This document shows positions 19,596 to 59,705 of a stretch of 64,000 nt of DNA, one piece after another (the stretch's first letter is position 1; each line of letters begins with the position of its first letter). This DNA comes from Pseudoxanthomonas suwonensis (GTDB lineage Bacteria; Pseudomonadota; Gammaproteobacteria; Xanthomonadales; Xanthomonadaceae). The notes beneath the pieces are model-generated. The model made no database searches, was not told the DNA's origin, and saw nothing but the letters and a program-made list of their open reading frames with translations. A program made the translations under genes and the position numbers. The stretch lies in contig NZ_CP011144.1 of NCBI RefSeq assembly GCF_000972865.1, positions 1,488,001 through 1,552,000 of the forward strand, written 5' to 3'.

Positions 19596-19617
19596 AGTGC
19601 CCGACCTTTCTCCGCTG

Positions 19618-20084
19618 TTGTAGGAGCCGGGTTCAGCCGGCGACACGACGCCGTCGGCACAGGCGACGCCCTCGTGATTCCGACGCCCGTGTCGCCGACT
19701 GAAGTCAGCTCCTACAGAAGAGCGGCCGCGCTGCGGCTGTTGTAGGAGCCGGGTTCAGCCGGCGACACGACGACGCCGGCACAGGCGACGCCCTCATGGT
19801 TCCGACGCCCGTGTCGCCGACTGAAGTCAGCTCCTACAGAAGAGCGGCCGCGCGGTGGCTGTTTGTAGGAGCCGGGTTCAGCCGGCGAAGCGACGCCGTC
19901 GGCACAGGCGACGCCCTCATGGTTCCGACGCCCGTGTCGCCGACTGAAGTCAGCTCCTACAGAAGAGCGGCCGCGCGGTGGCTGTTGTAGGAGCCGGGTT
20001 CAGCCGGCGAAGCGACGCCGGCGGCACAGGCGACGCCCTCATGGTCCCGACGCCCTTGTCGCCGGCTGAACCCGGCTCCTACAA
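19618..20084. repeat. REP/BIME-like array, four palindromic units (period about 122 bp)
   Basis: This fills the 548-bp gap between the barrel gene and the aldo/keto reductase gene. Each ~98-bp unit starts TGTAGGAGC and ends GCTCCTACA. The left arm has the hairpin GCCGG-GTTCAG-CCGGC; the right arm has GCCGAC-TGAA-GTCAGC. In the fourth unit the right arm has changed to GCCGG-CTGAAC-CCGGC, so it is self-complementary to its left arm. Units are separated by ~23-bp linkers containing agagcggccgcg. No gene is supported here. Confidence 0.9.
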
Positions 20085-25272: not shown

Positions 25273-25332
25273 GGCTAACGCCTGAATCAAGCCGCGCCAA
25301 GATATGGCGACGGTTTGAATGAATTGTCAGGG
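25273..25332 (-). other. attC site 1 (distal end of the array, degenerate)
   Basis: Read on the minus strand, a CCCTGAC-type R'' box, a central imperfect hairpin (AAACCG...CGCGGCTTGA) and a GTTAGCC R' box are seen. Both outer boxes deviate from the RYYYAAC/GTTRRRY consensus, so recombination competence is doubtful. It ends the cassette carrying the OsmC-family gene. Confidence 0.8.
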
Positions 25333-25342
25333 CACGCTCGAC

Positions 25343-25750
25343 TCACAGCGAACTCTCGACTAAGACGACCGGAACACCCGAACGGACAGTATTGTGTACC
25401 TCCGCCACCGCGTCAGTTTGCCGAAGCAGAGCCACCACTGCAGTTGGATCAGCCGGCGAAGACACGTTGGCTCGATATCGAATGTTCCTGGCCGCAAGAC
25501 CAACACCCGGGAAGTCAGCCGTAGCCTCGACCTCAACCCCGGACAAGCTAATGCTCAAGCGCGCCGCTTCCCGGTAAAGATCATTGCAGTAGCAAGTCGC
25601 CAAAGCGAGGAGCAGCAACTCGCCGCCGTTCACACCGGAGCCTTGACCGGCAGCCTTGCCGGGGATGGCCAGCGCTTGAGTTGTGTTGTCGGTACGGACA
25701 GAGACGACATGTCCGGCTCCAGAGTTCTTGACGGTCGCCGAGATCTCCAC
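25343..25750 (-). CDS. OsmC family protein in an integron cassette, 135 aa
   Basis: Short OsmC-superfamily protein. The conserved centre is GGELLLLALATCYCNDLYRE, with the family cysteine in ATCYC, followed by VEVEATADFPGVGLAARNI, typical of OsmC-like domains. The GTG at 25750 has GGAGA six bases upstream and lies 30 bp inside the cassette boundary. The stop is 10 bp before the attC that closes the cassette. GC is lower than in chromosomal neighbours. A role in reducing hydroperoxides is possible but not shown, as a second redox cysteine is not evident. Confidence 0.8.
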   Translation of the reverse strand: MEISATVKNSGAGHVVSVRTDNTTQALAIPGKAAGQGSGVNGGELLLLALATCYCNDLYREAARLSISLSGVEVEATADFPGVGLAARNIRYRANVSSPADPTAVVALLRQTDAVAEVHNTVRSGVPVVLVESSL

Positions 25751-25779
25751 TTGCGCTCTCCGTTAGTGCTTGTAGCGGG

Positions 25780-25840
25780 CCCCAACTGCTGAATTGAGCC
25801 GACGGGCGAAGCCCGTTGGGCTTGAATGAATTGTTAGGTG
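25780..25840 (-). other. attC site 2
   Basis: Minus-strand reading: CACCTAAC R'' box, AATTCATTCAAGCCC arm, short hairpin loop, GGCTCAATTCAGCAG arm and a GTTGGGG R' box. The internal stem (ACGGGC/GCCCGT) is intact. It closes the cassette that contains the plus-strand hydrolase gene. Confidence 0.88.
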
Positions 25841-25887
25841 CCCCGGGGCGGTTTACGTGCCATCCTGATTGCGGGCTATCATTGCAG

Positions 25888-26787
25888 ATGATGACCGACC
25901 TCACCACGACGCTTCGAGAGCGCCTAGGGCTTGCGGACCCTGTTCCGGTGGCGTTCCAACGAGGCGACGTCGAAGAGGCCGACGGATTCGACCGGGAACG
26001 GATCGAGTACCGGGGACTCGAAGGCGACCTCATCCCGGCTTTCCTGTTCACGCCGAGAGGGCGCGATACGCTCGGCGGAGTGGTTGTCTTTCACCAGCAC
26101 AATGGGGAGTTCCATTTCGGCAAGAGTGAGGTAGCCGGCGAGGTGGGCGACGCGTTTCAAGCCTTCGGGCCGGCACTCGCTCGTAGAGGCCTCGCAGTCC
26201 TGGCCTCGGACTCCATCACTTTCGAGGATCGACGAGGAGCGGTTCAGGGAGTGGAACCGGATTATTACGATTGGCTTCAGCACTACAACGCCATGAGCTA
26301 CCGGCTGCTGGATGGCGACCTGCTGATGAGGAAGTGCCTGGATGACGCCCAACGGGCCCTGAGCGTTCTGGTCCAGGCCGCCGGGATAGACGAGCGGCTC
26401 GTGGGCGTGGCAGGACACTCGTACGGTGGTTACACGGCGCTCTACCACGCGGCAGTCGATGCACGATGCAGGTTCGCATGCGTCAGCGGTGCCGTATGCA
26501 GCTTCGAGACGCGCCGCCGGGAAGACACCGGGATCACCCTTTTCGAGACCGTGCCCGGGCTCGCTCGCCAGATCGACACGCACGATGTTCTTTCAGCCAT
26601 CGGACCTCGGCCGACAATGGTTGTGTCGGGTACCAAGGACAAGTATTCACGGGATGCAGACCAGGTCGTGGCCAAGGTCGCCGGCGACTTCATTACCGAG
26701 CTCCGCGTCGACCGCGGACACGCTCTCGATCAAGAGAGATTCGATGCGATCGTCGAGTGGATCGTCGACCGCGTATCCGATCAGTGA
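25888..26787 (+). CDS. Alpha/beta hydrolase (dienelactone hydrolase-like) in an integron cassette, 299 aa
   Basis: Cytosolic hydrolase (no signal peptide). The nucleophile elbow AGHSYGGYT carries the catalytic Ser, the strand GVVVFHQHNGEF provides the oxyanion region, GTKDKYSRD the acid and VDRGHALDQ the His. The family includes carboxymethylenebutenolidase-like and acetylxylan-esterase-like enzymes; the substrate is unknown. It is the only cassette gene encoded on the plus strand, against the cassette direction set by the attC sites, so it needs its own promoter. TATCAT at 25876-25881 is a possible -10 box. Two ATGs in tandem (25888, 25891) could start it; the longer frame runs through attC and is rejected. 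Confidence 0.82.
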   Translation: MMTDLTTTLRERLGLADPVPVAFQRGDVEEADGFDRERIEYRGLEGDLIPAFLFTPRGRDTLGGVVVFHQHNGEFHFGKSEVAGEVGDAFQAFGPALARRGLAVLASDSITFEDRRGAVQGVEPDYYDWLQHYNAMSYRLLDGDLLMRKCLDDAQRALSVLVQAAGIDERLVGVAGHSYGGYTALYHAAVDARCRFACVSGAVCSFETRRREDTGITLFETVPGLARQIDTHDVLSAIGPRPTMVVSGTKDKYSRDADQVVAKVAGDFITELRVDRGHALDQERFDAIVEWIVDRVSDQ

Positions 26788-26795
26788 GAAGGGAC

Positions 26796-26855
26796 GCCTA
26801 ACGCTTGAGTTAAGCCGACCCGTGAAGCGGGTTCGGCTTGAATGAATTATTAGGC
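26796..26855 (-). other. attC site 3
   Basis: Minus-strand reading: GCCTAAT R'' box, TTCATTCAAGCCGAACCCGC, loop, GGGTCGGCTTAACTCAAGC and GTTAGGC R' box. The internal stem is perfect apart from an extra A on the R'' side. It closes the cassette of the 139-aa unknown protein; that gene's stop codon lies inside the R'' box. Confidence 0.93.
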
Positions 26856-27269
26856 CTCATCATAGCTGCGCAAGAACTCTTGCTCTTGACTCTTGAGCGA
26901 TATGTGAAGCAACAGGGTCCGATCGAGATCGACTGTTGGATGCGATGCGGTGTGTTTGGAGAACCAGAACACCTCAGCCAACGGTTCGTCAGAGTGCCAA
27001 GTTGTCATTACAAACTGGTCCTCAGGAATGCCAGCCAGGCCGAATGGCTTGGCGTTGGCCAGGTCCACTGAGTCGTCCCAGGAGCTGCAATCTTGACCCC
27101 AAGCCATCATGTAGAGGCAGCCCGATTGAACGAGCCAGTCGCTAACAAGCGATTGCCATTGTGGCGAGACGTCAGCCTCGACAGCTACGACAGCTTTGAA
27201 TGGTCTGCTATCAAGCGGGCTCGGAGTGGCCCCGGGCTCAAGGTGCAGGTATTCGACGGAATCTGACAT
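26850..27269 (-). CDS. Unknown cassette protein, 139 aa
   Basis: Soluble protein of unknown function. No signal peptide or membrane helix. Notable segments are WLVQSGCLYMMAWGQDCSSW, TTWHSDEPLAEVFWF and the acidic, aromatic composition, which suggest a compact alpha/beta domain; I cannot name a family with confidence. The ATG at 27269 is only a few bases after the cassette boundary (GCTAGGC), leaving no room for a ribosome-binding site, and the TAA stop is formed by the attC R'' box. This is the normal layout of an integron cassette gene. GC is much lower than in housekeeping neighbours. Confidence 0.7.
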   Translation of the reverse strand: MSDSVEYLHLEPGATPSPLDSRPFKAVVAVEADVSPQWQSLVSDWLVQSGCLYMMAWGQDCSSWDDSVDLANAKPFGLAGIPEDQFVMTTWHSDEPLAEVFWFSKHTASHPTVDLDRTLLLHISLKSQEQEFLRSYDEA

Positions 27270-27272
27270 GAG

Positions 27273-27332
27273 GCCTAGCGCCTGAATTAAGCCGACCCGC
27301 GAATCGGGTTCGGCTTGAATGAATTGCTAGGC
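27273..27332 (-). other. attC site 4
   Basis: Minus-strand reading: GCCTAGC R'' box, AATTCATTCAAGCCGAACCC, loop, GGGTCGGCTTAATTCAGGC and GCTAGGC R' box. Both outer boxes carry the same C-for-T change relative to GTTAGGC, so they still pair with each other. It closes the cassette of the 155-aa membrane protein, whose last codons lie within the site. Confidence 0.93.
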
Positions 27333-27754
27333 ATCGCAGCGAGATCCCGACTGGACTTGGCGCGAATTGGTATTAAAACAAGAAGGGCAATATTGAGTGC
27401 TATGGCGCCAACTGGCGGCAACCCGACGAACAGCCAAACTAGTGCGGCCATTGCAAGCGAAATACTGGCTGGCAAGATAATGAACCACTTACGCAGATCA
27501 TCCTTGATCCAGACCCGATATGCGCCAAAGGCATACAAGGCACCCAAAGCCATACCGATGATCGCATCAAGAAGAAGTTGAGAGCCACCAAGGAGCTGCA
27601 TGGTACCCGCAGCTCCGTTGCTAAATGCTGAAAAGGCGAGAATGCCAAATGTCGCCATCATTACTTTGTAGTCGCGGCTCTCCAGCTGTCGACGACGATT
27701 GCGATAAGCAATCTCTGCCCGACGATCAGGAACTTCAATTACTACATCGGTCAT
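27287..27754 (-). CDS. Small membrane protein in an integron cassette, 155 aa
   Basis: Predicted inner-membrane protein with four hydrophobic segments (around VMMATFGILAFSAF, LLLDAIIGMALGALYAFGAY, WFIILPASISLAMAALVWLF and VGAIALNIALLVLIPI) after a charged N-terminus. Function unknown. The second ATG (27754) is preferred because GGAGGGG lies just before it. The protein ends in NSFKPNPIRGSA; these last 12 residues and the stop are encoded by the attC site, so the tail is a by-product of the recombination site and not a functional domain. AT-rich compared with the chromosome. Confidence 0.75.
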   Translation of the reverse strand: MTDVVIEVPDRRAEIAYRNRRRQLESRDYKVMMATFGILAFSAFSNGAAGTMQLLGGSQLLLDAIIGMALGALYAFGAYRVWIKDDLRKWFIILPASISLAMAALVWLFVGLPPVGAIALNIALLVLIPIRAKSSRDLAAMPSNSFKPNPIRGSA

Positions 27755-27839
27755 TGTCCCCTCCATAATGCCTAACGCCTGAATTAAGCCGTGCCGCGAA
27801 GCGGGTGGCAGTTCCTACGAAAAAGTGGACATCCATTTT

Positions 27840-28646
27840 CTAGCAGCACTGTTCGAACTCGACGGGTGAGCGATATCCCAGCGCCGAATGCAGCCGCTGA
27901 TGGTTGTAGAAACGGATGTAGTCACTGATCGCCATGCGCAGCGACCGGTCACTGTCGAAACTGCCGCGGTGGTACATCTCCGACTTCATCGACTTGTTCC
28001 ATGACTCCATGTGCGCGTTGTCGTTCATCCGCCGCGGCCGGTTGACCGACTGCACCAGTCCAGCGCTCCCCAGTCGGCGCCTGAAGTCACTGGCCATGAA
28101 CTCGATCCCCCGATCACTGTGGAACAGCGTATCGCACGCCGGCGCACGTGTCCGCAGGGCTGCCGCCAGGGCACGACGGGTCAGTGCCGCGGTGCGCTCG
28201 GCTCCCAGCGACCAGCCCAGCAGGCGCCGGGAATACCGGTCCATGACCGTGGCCAGGTAGCGCCACTGGCCACCGACCTTGAGGTAGGTCACATCGCCGA
28301 CACAGACCTGGTCGGGGCGGCTGGACGGCACGTCGTGGGCGCGGCTCGGGACGCTGTCCAGGAACCGGGTCAGTCCGGACCGTCGCCGATACAGCCGCGC
28401 CGAGCACGCGCGCACGCCTTCCTCGCGCATCAGCCGCTCCACGCGCCGGCGTCCCACCTGCTCACCCTGCCGCCGCAGCGCCGCATGCACCCGGGGACTG
28501 CCATAGGTTTCCCGGCTGGCGCCATGCACTTGGCGGATCTTCTCGACCAGCGCCGCGTCCTCGATCGCACGGGCGCTGGCAGGTCGCCGCACCCAAGCGT
28601 AATAGCCGGCGGCACTGACCCCGTAGAGGCGGCACATCGTCCTCAC
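27840..28646 (-). CDS. IS3-family transposase OrfB (DDE domain)
   Basis: Catalytic part of the transposase: HTH_21-like start ([14 protein letters not shown]) then an rve integrase core with the DDE residues in [20 protein letters not shown] and [11 protein letters not shown]. The ORF listed here begins at a GTG overlapping the orfA stop. The real product is more likely an OrfAB fusion made by -1 slippage at the seven A residues (minus strand, 28718-28724) within orfA, because the -1 frame from that point reads [20 protein letters not shown], the usual IS3 junction. The reading frame appears intact. Confidence 0.9.
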
Positions 28647-28999
28647 CGGGTACGTTTCCCGGTGGTGCTCGATGAAGGCGAAGATTTGGCCTTTCGATCG
28701 GAAGTGAACGCGATCGCTTTTTTTAAAAGGTCATGTTCGAGCTTCAACTGCTCGTACTGCTTCTTGACCCGCCGCAGCTCCTTGAGCTCGGCGGCTACCG
28801 CCGGATCCACATCCACACCCTTGGCCATGATCTGTCCCTCGCGCACCAGCTTGCGCCAACGAGACAACATGAAAGGATGGATGTAAAGCGACTCGGCGAC
28901 GTCACGGACGGCAACGCCCGGCAGTTGGCTCAAGCGGACAGCAGCCGCCTTGAAGGCATCGCTGTAGTGGTACGTCGTCCTGGGACCGGGCTTTGGCAT
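28643..28999 (-). CDS. IS3-family transposase OrfA
   Basis: 118-aa DNA-binding subunit with a helix-turn-helix ([20 protein letters not shown]) and a C-terminal leucine-rich coiled coil ([20 protein letters not shown]), as in all IS3 OrfA proteins. After the [13 protein letters not shown] segment, which is encoded by the slippery A-run, the frame continues for about 25 residues of no known function, the usual consequence of programmed frameshifting into orfB. Confidence 0.9.
28716..28726 (-). promoter_or_regulatory. Programmed -1 frameshift site of the IS3 element
   Basis: A run of seven A residues on the minus strand (A-AAA-AAG type heptamer with the following G) lies within the LLKKAIA codons of orfA. 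A -1 shift joins the OrfA leucine-zipper end to the OrfB sequence [19 protein letters not shown]. No downstream stimulatory hairpin was checked. Confidence 0.75.
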
Positions 29000-29085
29000 G
29001 GGAACACTCCTGAGGTTAGGTCAGGGTGTCCACTGGACCGAAGGAACTACCGCGTCGGCTTGAATGAATTGTTAGGTGCCGCAGG

Positions 29086-30161
29086 TTAACAAGGTAAGTG
29101 CAACACCTGCGCCGCCCATGGATGGAGAGGTGAGCTGGCAGACTGGAGGGGATCACTCGGCCAAGAGACGATCCCTCATGTACAGCCAGCTCACCGAGCC
29201 GGAACGATACACCTTGGGCGTCCTGAATCGACAGGGCCTGTCACGGCGCTCGATCGCCCGGATCCTGGGAAGGAGCCCCAGCACAATCAGTCGCGAGATT
29301 CGCCGCAATGCCTGTCACGCCACCGATGGTGCCTACCGGCCCAGCAAGGCCCAGGAGCGCACCAATGGCCGCCGCCGACGGTCGCGTCGCGTGCGCCACC
29401 ATGGCGAGGCCGTCTACGAAGCCATCGAGTACCTGCTCCAGCACGAGCAGTGGAGTCCCGAGCAGATCGCCCACTGGCTCGTGCTCAATGACGTGGCCCG
29501 GATCAGCCACATGACTATCTATCGGCACGTATGCCAGGACACCCGGTGCGGAGGCGTGCTGCGATCGTCCCTGCGCCAGGGAGGCAAACGACGTCGCAAA
29601 CGTGCCATCGGGCCCGAGAAGCGCGGGCGGCTGCAGGGTAAGCCCATGATCGACACCCGACCAGAAGTGGTCGAGACCAGACTTGAACCCGGCCACTGGG
29701 AAGGCGACACCGTCATCGGCACCGTCGACGAACGCGACTGCCTGCTCACGCTGGTGGAGCGCAGTTCCGGAATAGCCCTGGTCGCCAAGCTCCCTCATCG
29801 CACCGTCACTGCCGTGAACCGCGCCACGCTGAAACTCATCCGCGACAGCGGCATGCCTTTCAAGACCATTACCTGGGACAACGGCACCGAGTTCCATGGC
29901 TACAAAGCACTGGAAGACGCCACCGGAGTACGCTGCTACTTCGCCTACCCGCACCGCCCATGGCAGCGTGGCAGTAACGAGAACTTCAATGGTTTGCTTC
30001 GGCAGTACTTCCCAAAACGACGCAGCCTCGCACGACTACGGCAACACCACTGCGACCTCATCGCTCACAAGCTCAATTCCCGACCGAGGAAGCGCCATGG
30101 CTACAAAACGCCCATCGAACGAATCAAAGAGCTATGCGGGTCGTTGCACTTCGAGTGTTAA
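29086..30161 (+). mobile_element. IS30-family insertion sequence (about 1.08 kb)
   Basis: It is bounded by imperfect inverted repeats: TTAACAAGGTAAGTGCAAC at the left end and GTTGCACTTCGAGTGTTAA at the right end. It contains one transposase gene on the plus strand whose stop codon lies in the right repeat, as is common in IS30. It was inserted between the 128-aa cassette gene and its attC. No clear target duplication was seen. Confidence 0.88.
29178..30161 (+). CDS. IS30-family transposase, 327 aa
   Basis: DDE transposase. The N-terminal helix-turn-helix reads SRRSIARILGRSPSTISREI, followed by the IS30 catalytic core with Asp in GHWEGDTVIGT, Asp in TWDNGTEF and Glu in the WQRGSNENFNG motif, then YFPKRRSL. 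Length matches family members. The ATG at 29178 (MYSQLTEPERY) is the family start; a longer frame reaches back into the attC. No frameshift seen, so it may be active. Confidence 0.92.
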   Translation: MYSQLTEPERYTLGVLNRQGLSRRSIARILGRSPSTISREIRRNACHATDGAYRPSKAQERTNGRRRRSRRVRHHGEAVYEAIEYLLQHEQWSPEQIAHWLVLNDVARISHMTIYRHVCQDTRCGGVLRSSLRQGGKRRRKRAIGPEKRGRLQGKPMIDTRPEVVETRLEPGHWEGDTVIGTVDERDCLLTLVERSSGIALVAKLPHRTVTAVNRATLKLIRDSGMPFKTITWDNGTEFHGYKALEDATGVRCYFAYPHRPWQRGSNENFNGLLRQYFPKRRSLARLRQHHCDLIAHKLNSRPRKRHGYKTPIERIKELCGSLHFEC

Positions 30162-30171
30162 TTCACCTGCG

Positions 30172-30558
30172 CTATGGCTGACTGAAATGTGCGGCATAAA
30201 AAACACCAGCTTCCTCCCAGGAATCCTCGAATGCATCTAGAACATGGCCGAGACGTTGAATGCGATTCCAGTCATTTGAGACGACTGCATCCCGGGACAT
30301 TGACTCAAATTGTGCCTTGAGTTCAGGCCAGCGCAAGGCATGCACACAGAACTGGATAAACCACTCGTCACAGGCATCGGGCGTGTCGATGCCGCGCAGG
30401 AATGCCAAAGCAAAGGCCGGCCGCTCCTCTGGATAAGCCGATATCAGCTTTAGAGCGGCTTGGCCGAAAGGGACCACATCTGGTGCGTTGAAGGTAATCG
30501 CGAGGTGTGCGGTCGCAGCCTTAGAGATTTCCTGGAACTGCTCAACGGGTGAGGACAT
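30172..30558 (-). CDS. Unknown cassette protein, 128 aa
   Basis: Soluble, mostly helical-looking protein (EISKAATAHLAI, AALKLISAYPEERPAFALAF, DEWFIQFCVHALRWPELKAQ, VLDAFEDSWEEAGVFYAAHF) without known motifs. The pattern of short amphipathic helices could suit an immunity-like or HEAT-type fold, but that is a guess. It starts 16 bp inside the cassette. Its own attC is now about 1.1 kb away because an IS30 element lies 10 bp after the stop and an IS3 element splits the attC. The coding frame is intact. Confidence 0.68.
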   Translation of the reverse strand: MSSPVEQFQEISKAATAHLAITFNAPDVVPFGQAALKLISAYPEERPAFALAFLRGIDTPDACDEWFIQFCVHALRWPELKAQFESMSRDAVVSNDWNRIQRLGHVLDAFEDSWEEAGVFYAAHFSQP

Positions 30559-30567
30559 TTAGTGAGC

Positions 30568-30627
30568 GCCTAACGCTTGAGTTAAGCCGCGCCACGAAGT
30601 GGCGTCGGCTTGAACGAATGGTTAGAA
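30568..30627 (-). other. attC site 6
   Basis: Minus-strand reading: TTCTAAC R'' box, CATTCGTTCAAGCCGACGCC, loop TTCGTGGCGCGG, CTTAACTCAAGC arm and GTTAGGC R' box. The internal stem GCCAC/GTGGC is intact. It closes the cassette of the 146-aa membrane protein. Confidence 0.93.
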
Positions 30628-30628
30628 C

Positions 30629-31069
30629 TCACAGCGCGGACCATAACGCTGCGAGCACTGCGACAGTGTCACGCCAAAGAAGGGCAATTGAAAGAAGACC
30701 AACGACAAGAGGCCCTGCATAGGCGAAGAGCGAGAACGGCAAGAAGAAGGCAGAAACAATTCTTCTTGCCTTATCCGCATCATTCGGATTCTTAAGGCGC
30801 TCTAGTTGCGCTGGATCAGACACGAAGTAGTCAGCCGCTTCCGCTCGCGAGACGACGAGGGCCGCATAGGCGTAGATCAGCGCAAGACCAATGAGACCGG
30901 GAATCAATCGAGAGGATTCCGGGTCAAAGGTGACGCCCAGCACCTCCAGCTTGCTCAAATCAATGTTGAGCAGCTTGGTTAGGATGCCTAGCGCGGATAA
31001 AAAAAGCACGGATCTACCGATCTCGTAGTACTTCTCAGCGAGAATGTGCTTGGTCTGCGACGAGAGCAT
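30629..31069 (-). CDS. Membrane protein in an integron cassette, 146 aa
   Basis: Predicted inner-membrane protein: hydrophobic segments SVLFLSALGILTKLL (~20-35), LIPGLIGLALIYAYAALVV (~55-73) and a long C-terminal pair in FFLPFSLFAYAGPLVVGLLSIALLW (~107-131), with a charged loop (AADYFVSDPAQLERLKNPND) between. No recognised family. The TGA stop is 3 bp before the attC R'' box, and the ATG is 15 bp after the preceding attC boundary. Low GC. Confidence 0.72.
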   Translation of the reverse strand: MLSSQTKHILAEKYYEIGRSVLFLSALGILTKLLNIDLSKLEVLGVTFDPESSRLIPGLIGLALIYAYAALVVSRAEAADYFVSDPAQLERLKNPNDADKARRIVSAFFLPFSLFAYAGPLVVGLLSIALLWRDTVAVLAALWSAL

Positions 31070-31077
31070 CTTGTGAG

Positions 31078-31137
31078 TTCTAACGCTTGAGTTAAGCCGA
31101 CCCGCGAAGCGGGTTCGGCTTGAATGAATTGTTAGGT
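31078..31137 (-). other. attC site 7 (proximal)
   Basis: Minus-strand reading: CACCTAAC R'' box, AATTCATTCAAGCCGAACCC, loop GCTTCGC, GGGTCGGCTTAACTCAAGC and GTTAGAA R' box. It closes the first cassette of the array; that cassette's stop codon (TAA) is part of the R'' box. Confidence 0.94.
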
Positions 31138-31428
31138 GCCATCCTCTGCCCGGACTGAAGAGCGCGCACCAAAAAGCAAGCTAAAGATGCCACCAAGAAG
31201 AACACCAAAGCCGATCCCCATGCTGCCAATAACCCTAGAAGATGACGGCATGTCGAAGCCTCGAATTGCAGCAACGTGAATGGCAAATGGGACTGCAAGC
31301 AGCACAACTCCCAATATGCTTGCAACCATCGCAGCTTGGCGCTGCCTCAAACCCAGACATACCCAAGCGGTACCCGCACAGAAGGCCGCTGCACAAATCG
31401 CTAACCATAACCACTGGATGCTGGACAT
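31132..31428 (-). CDS. Small membrane protein in the first integron cassette, 98 aa
   Basis: Three predicted transmembrane helices (LWLAICAAAFCAGTAWVCLG, VASILGVVLLAVPFAIHVAA, IGSMGIGFGVLLGGIFSLLF) make this an inner-membrane protein of unknown function. The ATG at 31428 lies two codon lengths after the cassette boundary GTTAGGTGCC, so there is no ribosome-binding site. It may be translated without a leader if transcription begins at the junction, or through coupling. Its TAA stop lies in the attC. A longer frame reaches upstream across the boundary and is not favoured. Confidence 0.7.
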   Translation of the reverse strand: MSSIQWLWLAICAAAFCAGTAWVCLGLRQRQAAMVASILGVVLLAVPFAIHVAAIRGFDMPSSSRVIGSMGIGFGVLLGGIFSLLFGARSSVRAEDGT

Positions 31429-31431
31429 GGC

Positions 31432-31438
31432 ACCTAAC
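31432..31438 (-). other. Proximal recombination boundary of the cassette array
   Basis: GTTAGGT (minus strand) followed by GCCATG is the same junction sequence seen after attC 2, 5 and 7. No attC arm lies upstream of it, so this marks where the first cassette joined an attI or a secondary site. No integrase gene adjoins it. Confidence 0.65.
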
Positions 31439-31440
31439 TC

Positions 31441-31668
31441 TAAGTAGATCCCGTTTCCGGGGATATGCCCCGGATGTTCAGATGGTGCCGTAGACGTGTC
31501 AAGAAGGGACGCCACTGCCCTATCAATGGCTTGGCACTCCCATCGGCCGAACCGGTATCACCGGGTTCATCGAACCGGTATCACCGGGTTCATCGGCATT
31601 TATTCCACTTGGGAGGGGATATCTTTTATGACCCCGGGAACGAGGCGATATCCGGATATTCCCGCAAC
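31441..31668. other. Gap between alr and the cassette array with hairpins and a tandem repeat
   Basis: 228 bp without a gene. A perfect hairpin CCGGGG-ATATG-CCCCGG is at 31457-31473. Two adjacent copies of a 23-bp unit beginning GAACCGGTATCACCGG occupy 31549-31594, each able to form a small hairpin. No integrase or clear attI was recognised, and no T-run that would make a terminator for alr. Confidence 0.6.
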
Positions 31669-42024: not shown

Positions 42025-42610
42025 TTGTAGGAGCCGGGTTCAGCCGGCGACACGGGCGTCGGGATCATGAGGGCGTCGCCTGTGTCGACGGCGTCGTGTC
42101 GCCGGCTGAAGCCAGCTCCTACAACAGCAACAGCGCCGCCGCTTTGTGTAGGAGCCGGGTTCAGCCGGCGACCAGGGCGTCGGGATCATGAGGGCGTCGC
42201 CTGTGTCGACGTCGTCGTGTCGCCGGCTGAAGCCAGCTCCTACAACAGCAACAGCGCCGCCGCTTTGTGTAGGAGCCGGGTTCAGCCGGCGACCAGGGCG
42301 TCGGGATCACGAGGGCGTCGCCTGCGCCGACGGCGTCGTGTCGCCGGCTGAAGCCAGCTTCTACAACAGCAACAGCGCCGCCGCTTTGTGTAGGAGCCGG
42401 GTTCAGCCGGCGACCAGGGCGTCGTGGTCATGAGGGCGTCGCCTGTGTCGACGGCGTCGTGTCGCCGGCTGAAGCCAGCTCCTACAACAGCAACAGCGCC
42501 GCCGCTTTGTGTAGGAGCCGGGTTCAGCCGGCGACCAGGGCGTCGGGATCACGAGGAAGTCGCCTGTGCCGACGGCGTCGTGTCGCCGGCTGAAGCCAGC
42601 TCCTACAACA
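42025..42610. repeat. REP/BIME-like array, five units (period about 121 bp)
   Basis: Five palindromic units occupy most of the 810-bp gap between the glycoside hydrolase and dacC. Left arms are GCCGG-GTTCAG-CCGGC type; right arms GCCGGC-TGAA-GCCAGC. Linkers read caacagcgccgccgctttg. The remaining ~120 bp next to dacC hold a terminator. Confidence 0.92.
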
Positions 42611-42665
42611 GCAGCGCCAGCAGCGTTGCAGAGGGCACGGACGTCGGAAACATGGTGCACTCGCC

Positions 42666-58780: not shown

Positions 58781-59705
58781 CTGCAGGAGCCGGGTTCGGC
58801 CGGCGACCGGGCGCCGTCGGCACAGGCGACGCCCTCGTGGTTCCGACGCCCGTGTCGCCGACTGAAGTCAGCTCCTACAGAGAGCGACCACGACGCAGCT
58901 GTTGTAGGAGCCGGGTTCAGCCGGCGACGCGGCGCCGCCGGCACAGGCGACGCCCTCATGGTTCCGACGCCCGTGTCGCCGACTGAAGTCGGCTCCTACA
59001 GAGAGCGGTCGCGACGCAGCTGTTGTAGGAGCCGGGTTCAGCCGGCGACGCGGCGCCGCCGGCACAGGCGACGCCCTCATGGTTCCGACGCCCGTGTCGC
59101 CGACTGAAGTCAGCTCCTACAGAAGAGCGGCCGCGCCGCGGCTGTTGCAGGAGCCGGGTTCAGCCGGCGACACGACGCCGTCGGCACAGGCGACGCCCTC
59201 ATGGTTCCGACGCCCGCGTCGCCGACTGAAGTCAGCTCCTACAGAGAGCGACCACGACGCAGCTGTTGTAGGAGCCGGGTTCAGCCGGCGACACGACGCC
59301 GCCGGCACAGGCGACGCCCTCATGGTCCCGACGCCCGTGTCGCCGACTGAAGTCAGCTCCTACAGAGAGCGGCCACGACGCAGCTGTTGTAGGAGCCTGG
59401 TTCAGCCGGCGACGCGACGCCGTCGGCACAGGCGACGCCCTCATGGTCCCGACACCCGTGTCGCCGACTGAAGTCAGCTCCTACAGAGAGCGACCACGAC
59501 GCAGCTGTTGTAGGAGCCGGGTTCAGCCGGCGACGCGGCGCCGCCGGCACAGGCGACGCCCTCATGGTTCCGACGCCCGTGTCGCCGACTGAAGTCAGCT
59601 CCTACAGAGAGCGGCCGCGCCGCGGCTGTTGCAGGAGCCGGGTTCAGCCGGCGACACGACGACGCCGGCACAGGCGACGCCCTCGTGATTCCGACGCCCG
59701 TGTCG
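58781..59705. repeat. REP/BIME-like array, seven units plus one truncated
   Basis: Eight palindromic units with a period of 120-122 bp fill the 987-bp gap after the CadC-like gene. Left arms are GCCGG-GTTCAG-CCGGC (first copy TTCGGC), right arms mostly GCCGAC-TGAA-GTCAGC. Linkers alternate agagcgaccacgacgcagctgt-like and agagcggccgcgcc-like versions, which allows duplication steps to be traced. The last unit stops abruptly at TGTCG, where the stop codon of the next gene begins. Confidence 0.93.

Follow-up and report, generated by a model that had tools for sequence, protein, structure and literature searches.

An integron platform without integrase in Pseudoxanthomonas suwonensis, probably filled in trans by the resident IntI

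The 64,000-nucleotide stretch of the Pseudoxanthomonas suwonensis chromosome analysed here (contig NZ_CP011144.1, hereafter the window) carries between nhaC and alr an array of gene cassettes, which an earlier note, made from the letters alone, had described as a cluster of attC sites lacking an integrase (CALIN). The description holds in part, as the array has at least two attC and no neighbouring integrase gene (intI) and so falls under the working definition of a CALIN, but it is more than an attC cluster, since it possesses its own attI site, a conserved -35-like element and a 5' remnant of intI. The locus is probably an integron platform without an integrase that is filled in trans by the resident integrase, IntI. 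Its ancestor would be either an integron that lost intI save for a short stretch at the 5' end, or a piece of an integron. The resident IntI, encoded 1.35 Mb away beside a diverged attI copy, would insert and excise cassettes at the window attI in trans, and a chromosome with several attI platforms may be served by one IntI. The earlier note already raised mobilisation by a trans-acting integrase, which is plausible because a full-length IntI is encoded on the same chromosome. The integrase-less attI platform is a recurrent arrangement in Lysobacterales, of which the window array is one example.

The window array and its attI site

The array starts at 31438, where the interval described by the earlier note ends, and at its head stands what, judged by sequence, is an attI site (31438..31497, minus strand), composed of a CCCC-GGAAAC-GGG stretch followed by CTACTTAGAG and TTAGG, with the crossover after the G at 31438. 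Window positions 31433-31488 match the attI of the resident integron (L007:13,683-13,738) at 86% over 56 bp (E 4e-11), and the homology stops exactly at the start of the first cassette. A Pc-like promoter is predicted at 31474..31502 of the minus strand, with TTGACA at 31497-31502, a spacing of 16 nt and TGAACAT at 31474-31480, which puts TTGACA at -65 from the crossover. Beyond it lie a leader and a decayed intI 5' remnant (31503..31660, minus strand), whose former start codon at about 31621-31623 is now ATC. With a model of 17 intI-attI regions, nhmmer aligned model positions 1061-1262 to -223..0 of the window site (E 4.6e-13), and the decayed leader can be aligned with the 5' region of intI as far as about codon 13. 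This 5' remnant is all of intI that tblastn and nhmmer detected in cis near attI, and the statement that the window lacks an intI gene stands (tblastn with the resident IntI, best E 2.9).

The leader with the intI remnant also contains a perfect 23-bp tandem duplication (31548-31593). By eye, seven of 21 integrase-less platforms from several loci (the window, L103, L115, L120, L121, L123 and L124) show the same start-codon change: on the array strand, CAT has become GAT, which gives GATATC.

The genome, a single contig of 3,891,720 bp, encodes a full-length resident intI (479 bits, C1:172,573-173,508), which was recovered by the genome-wide search that the earlier note had proposed and lies 1.35 Mb from the window array. 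The resident integron (array 1) has its own attI. A search with the window site returned three attI in the genome, namely the window site, the resident one and a third at 2,467,501-2,467,549 (84%), and the attI core pattern likewise occurs three times, once beside intI. The third site belongs to array 3 (L055:7304-10119, equal to C1:2,467,303-2,470,118), which comprises eight attC matches and its own attI, and near which tblastn over L055 found no intI. Three attI-headed arrays thus stand against one full intI, and two of them, the window array and array 3, are integrase-less platforms. Two neighbouring cassettes, 93.5% alike, are common to arrays 1 and 3. In a tree built from attI regions about 235 bp long, the window attI groups with those of array 1, array 3 and Pseudoxanthomonas sp. 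NC8 (support 0.947), supports within this group being only 0.02-0.21.

The seven attC-type sites, found by a repeat search as seven copies of a 65-nt family, were examined further. Because an Rfam scan of the window gave no match, our own covariance model was built, trained solely on eight attC of another array (A2) of the same genome. Six of the seven sites match it at 53-82 bits (E 9e-20 to 7e-12), and the matches are on the minus strand throughout, which bears out both the number of sites and the orientation that had been suggested. The seventh (27770-27830) scores 16.7 bits (E 0.08), a low value explained by an IS3-family insertion sequence (about 27805-29052) that splits the site. Over the whole genome 27 matches with E below 1e-6 lie at five places (150 of 816 first-look candidates scored). 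The model fold is kept in the six intact window sites, with 93% of cells paired; two-sided changes occur at seven of 20 pairs, compared with a shuffle mean of 3.1 (3 of 500 shuffles reach seven), and the covariation score is 0.347 against 0.177 in shuffles, none of 500 being as high. In bottom-strand folding, five of the six beat 200 of 200 shuffles and the sixth 197 of 200; the R boxes are unpaired in the minimum-energy fold of two of the six (25273 and 25780).

From the orientation of the attC sites, the first cassette lies at the high-coordinate (alr) end. An alpha/beta hydrolase gene at 25888-26787 is the one cassette gene of seven that does not read from the minus strand. The content of guanine plus cytosine of the cassette genes is 51.5-62.4% against 69.4% for the window, so that the predominantly minus-strand, compositionally distinct genes reported earlier are confirmed. 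Of the flanks called housekeeping genes, alr is secure (354 bits, NCBIfam cut-off 168), whereas nhaC at 365.8 bits falls just below its cut-off of 370.

attI sites without integrase in related genomes

The core pattern GGGNNCTACTNNNAGTTA yielded 19 attI sites in 13 of 17 Pseudoxanthomonas genomes, while the reversed pattern, used as a control, occurred neither in these 17 nor in 197 genomes of the family. Twelve of the 19, in 12 of the 17 genomes, have an intI match at a distance of about 200 bp. The remaining seven have no intI and are spread over six genomes: two in the window's genome (G000) and one each in P. kaohsiungensis (G004), P. koreensis (G005), G006, G010 and P. suwonensis J47 (G015); P. 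sp. NC8 is G012 in this set. For the five outside G000, tblastn found no intI in 2.4 to 13.5 kb upstream, and attC sites follow downstream at four, the fifth (G006) having 520 bp of contig left.

A stricter pattern, applied to a named collection from which the window genome itself may be missing, gave 39 attI loci in Lysobacterales, metagenome-assembled genomes and one assembly named Candidatus Paracaedibacter. By tblastn 19 of these lack intI, L104 and L118 with partial intI being counted as intI-linked. At least 1.6 kb of upstream DNA was searched at the integrase-less loci except L130, which is doubtful as it has no TTGAC, and L113, for which 684 bp were available; L103, L109, L121 and L123 are genus loci already counted above, and L122 and L131 are nearly identical. 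With L130 left out, attC sites are found downstream at 12 of 18, and of the six others four have less than 1 kb there and two have 1.7 and 2.9 kb with none. Among the 197 family genomes the strict pattern found 18 unique sites in 12 genomes (24 rows before duplicates were dropped), seven of them without intI (two in G000, one in G004, one in G015 and three in G180). It should be noted that intI was found in 140 of the 197, and that the attI pattern misses three intI-bearing genus genomes (G001, G008 and G009) as well as most of the family, so that these counts hold for this attI lineage only; most of the assemblies compared are drafts, while the window genome is one contig. At one locus, L100 of Vulcaniibacterium tengchongense, intI appears in four tblastn pieces and may be broken by frameshifts.

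In a leave-one-out control all 17 intact intI-attI regions gave nearly full-length nhmmer matches, whereas each of 21 integrase-less platforms gave a single match, always at the attI end. On the model of 1262 positions, the left ends of these matches fall at 903-909 (five), 989-1028 (six), 1058-1064 (eight), 1078 (one) and 1146 (one). A second, 3' intI match was absent from all 21 at E 0.01 within up to 2.5 kb upstream (684 bp for L113). Counted from the crossover, TTGAC stands at -64 to -66 in 20 of the 21 platforms and at -62 to -66 in all 22 intI-linked attI, while 2.5% of random 55-bp windows hold this motif. The loci were not chosen for TTGAC, and L130 was left out when remnants and -35 elements were counted. 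As orthologues (L094/L109, L103/L121 and L017/L112) are among the 21 and 22 loci of the -35 count, these are not all independent. The persistence of TTGAC and attI looks like either selection on promoter and attI or a loss too recent to have erased them, and a very recent loss of intI is disfavoured because intI has decayed.

Traces of cassette exchange at such sites come from relatives. A cassette of 240 bp follows both the integrase-less and the intI-linked attI of P. kaohsiungensis, its two copies being 93.8% alike. The likeness starts at the crossover and stops at the attC crossover, the next 300 bp being unrelated (48%), and the attI sides are 84% alike over the last 60 bp and 70% over the last 200 bp. 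As the attI side is less alike and the DNA beyond is unrelated, a cassette and not a block is shared; a further 195-bp stretch downstream is 97% alike. Moreover, P. kaohsiungensis and G010, two species, have integrase-less platforms at one common locus with collinear upstream DNA, and a single extra cassette of 347 bp in G010 stands exactly between attI and the one with which the P. kaohsiungensis array begins. The simplest reading is an insertion or excision at attI after the loss of intI, with the reservation that G010 is a metagenome-assembled genome whose array could be misassembled. Since cassettes are shared in one case and differ by one in the other, the integrase-less attI sites of relatives have worked, and would have done so most simply by means of IntI in trans. 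Eight genomes with both kinds of array were compared, and shared downstream DNA was found in three (P. kaohsiungensis, bin.379 and G000), checked as cassettes only in P. kaohsiungensis and G000.

At the window locus itself, the comparison with relatives that had been proposed did not reveal an identical order: no attC was found around alr in 16 genus mates (L056-L071) at E 0.1 within 5 to 15 kb each, and a gap of about 135 bp separates alr from nhaC in G009.

Competing explanations and known systems

IntI may still act on the window attI, and the Pc-like element may drive the array, but several observations weigh against such continued use. The window array has no cassette of at least 75 bp in common with arrays 1 and 3, only the copy of an IS30-family element and attC-like sequence being shared, and so offers no direct trace of trans activity. 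In five of the eight genomes just mentioned (P. koreensis, P. suwonensis J47, PMG_145, Dokdonella and G006) shared downstream DNA is absent over the stretches of about 0.5-10 kb compared. The window and resident attI have drifted to 78% identity over the last 60 bp and 56% over 200 bp, a sigma-70 consensus scan returned no promoter at the Pc position of the window, some R boxes of the array are off consensus (GCTAGGC and GTTGGGG), and the third attC is split by the IS3 element.

That the attI-like sequence is due to chance or is an unrelated promoter motif is barely credible. It is indeed short, about 56 bp, but it matches the resident attI at E 4e-11 with extended homology at E 4.6e-13, accompanies intI in 12 of the 17 Pseudoxanthomonas genomes while the reversed pattern is found in none of the 17 or the 197, and sits exactly at the array start. 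A plain CALIN, in which the gap between alr and nhaC received cassettes at a site other than attI, would agree with the lack of an array at the alr locus of relatives, and work by Loot from 2024 reportedly describes CALINs arising through attG insertion; for an array headed by attI and an intI remnant this is nevertheless a very improbable origin. More serious, though still rather unlikely, is the view that the locus is a dying integron with intI deleted, attI and Pc left as fossils and the array frozen. The two insertion sequences, the split attC, the off-consensus R boxes and the lack of a cassette common to the window and other arrays would be expected from it, and in the available text of two reports most Xanthomonas integrase genes are broken and arrays were dynamic before inactivation (PMC12444791), and an integrase-less array is called static (PMC3607928). 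Yet a full-length intI exists in the same genome, TTGAC and the attI core are kept at exact spacing although intI is nearly erased, and in relatives, integrase-less platforms have cassettes at attI that they share or by which they differ.

The preferred explanation, a platform filled in trans, is compatible with more than one origin. One possibility, to which we give limited credence, is that the platforms moved, IntI having recombined an attC with an attG-like secondary site in the intI 5' end, so that a piece consisting of the intI 5' end, Pc, attI and cassettes was released and then re-inserted elsewhere. In array 3 the end of an attC coincides with the beginning of the homology to the 5' end of intI (..CAAGCG/ATATCC.., by eye on the alignment), and this G/ATAT agrees with the attG consensus GWTMW. 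None of the 21 platforms has a second 3' intI match, compared with nearly full-length matches in all 17 intact regions, and the left ends cluster, eight of 21 at model positions 1058-1064 and five of 21 (three loci) at 903-909. However, the larger cluster coincides with a hypervariable stretch (model 1051-1065) where alignments would tend to stop, the array-3 boundary is not independent as the nhmmer left end continues through the attC, and an attC adjoins the remnant at one junction only. L118 and L104, with about 237 and 88 intI codons left, fit a stepwise loss and suggest shortening from the 3' side. A single site for all left ends was not borne out, as three groups, one of them at the hypervariable stretch, and two single ends were obtained.

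CALINs, which lack intI, are seen as degraded integrons or as arrays mobilisable in trans (PMC9024848, PMC12444791, PMC9668308, as far as their available text goes). The window array resembles them in having several attC, no intI nearby and cassettes of the kind thought to be mobilisable in trans (PMC12444791 and PMC9668308, same portions), and differs in its own attI, Pc-like element and intI remnant. With the sedentary chromosomal integron of the genus it shares the type of attI and attC and the order of attI followed by cassettes, but it is without intI in cis. Xanthomonas CALINs, described in the accessible part of PMC12444791 at seven loci, e.g. beside lamG, secF and recD, are likewise away from the intI locus, and we predict attI sites at them. 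In Treponema phagedenis attC and cassettes were also kept after intI loss, yet there, according to the available text, the attC without intI are called static (PMC3607928), while the window genome has a full intI elsewhere. Cassettes of the Delta-attI type in mobile integrons similarly place an attI usable by IntI1 away from its usual position, with the difference that a truncated attI replaces the attC at the cassette end, whereas the window attI heads an array (PMC12901181, in the part available). In the accessible open-access literature, subscription papers lying outside this coverage, we found no report of an integrase-less attI platform receiving cassettes.

If some CALINs keep a working attI and promoter, the single integrase of a cell would have extra sites at which cassettes can dock and be expressed, and new ones could enter the first position at several loci. 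CALINs are interpreted as decayed integrons or as stray insertions, yet a genome survey counted them about as often as complete integrons (2961 against 2760), and IntegronFinder does not detect attI outside class 1 (both from the available part of PMC9024848); platforms of this kind would therefore be filed as CALINs and overlooked by the standard finder. It is tempting, as a tentative idea short of probable, to propose that Lysobacterales have distributed integrons, with one intI and several integrase-less Pc-attI platforms kept by selection, filled in trans and spread by IntI via a secondary site in the intI 5' end, and that many CALINs are such satellites. The attI pattern makes the view of CALINs as additional docking sites testable in Lysobacterales.

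Cassettes, insertion sequences and further observations

No PADLOC match was found for any of the seven cassette proteins at E 0.01, and four of the seven have no Pfam match. On the minus strand, counting from attI, these are a 98-aa protein (31132-31428) in cassette 1 (31084..31437, attC1 31078-31137), a 146-aa protein (30629-31069) in cassette 2 (30574..31083, attC2 30568-30627), the 128-aa product of the cassette 3 gene (30172..30558), next to which comes the IS30 element, and a 159-aa protein (27287-27766) in cassette 4 (27279..27775, attC4 27273-27332). Cassette 5 (26802..27278, minus strand, attC5 26796-26855) encodes a DUF7684 protein at 26850-27269 (PF24733, E 1.6e-63). The alpha/beta hydrolase gene (PF00326, E 1.6e-6) fills cassette 6 (25786..26801) on the plus strand, opposite to the array and unlike its attC6 (25780-25839), which reads minus. 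Cassette 7 (25279..25785, minus strand) contains an OsmC-like protein at 25343-25750 (PF02566, E 1.6e-13), and attC7 (25273-25332) is the distal end of the array.

Two insertion sequences lie inside the array, their ends being placed by eye. The IS3-family element (27805..29052, minus strand; NF033516, E 1.5e-81) splits the stem of attC3, leaving the R' half at 27770..27804 of the minus strand and the R'' half at about 29053-29077, beyond the element. The IS30-family element (29085..30164, plus strand; NF033563, E 8e-83) has its transposase frame at 29076-30161, and here 1116 bp match the resident integron (L007:16161-17276) at 99.9% identity. The genome holds two full copies and one 48-bp match; the two full copies are in different arrays, each at a distance of 6 to 8 bp from an attC. 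Targeting of attC by IS30 is not claimed, two copies being too few.

The earlier note mentions neither the attI at 31438 nor the -35-like element, the remnant of intI or the IS3 and IS30 insertions, all of which lie within the window; nor does it mention the intI gene elsewhere in the genome, which the window does not show. Weaker integrase matches were also followed: the one at 1,554,867 (weak TIGR02249) is XerC (358 bits, over cut-off), and a weak TIGR02249 match at 2,718,744 is probably XerD, judging by its score. Further attC without an attI of this type are present in the genome, two matches at 1,363,313-1,363,990 and a single one at 1,480,150-1,480,208. The gene upstream of array 3 is by eye similar to a B12-type ribonucleotide reductase, with no long frame listed there. 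Open reading frames that enter an attC finish in NSFKPNPLRGSA-like peptides, i.e. translated attC (window 27287-27766 and 31092-31325; L091:12446-12874). Finally, tandem arrays of a 121-122-bp unit with TGTAGGAGCCGGGTTCAGCCGGCGA occur in the window at 19614-20083, 42026-42613 and 58785-59705, and sequence related to this unit is also found near the resident integron.

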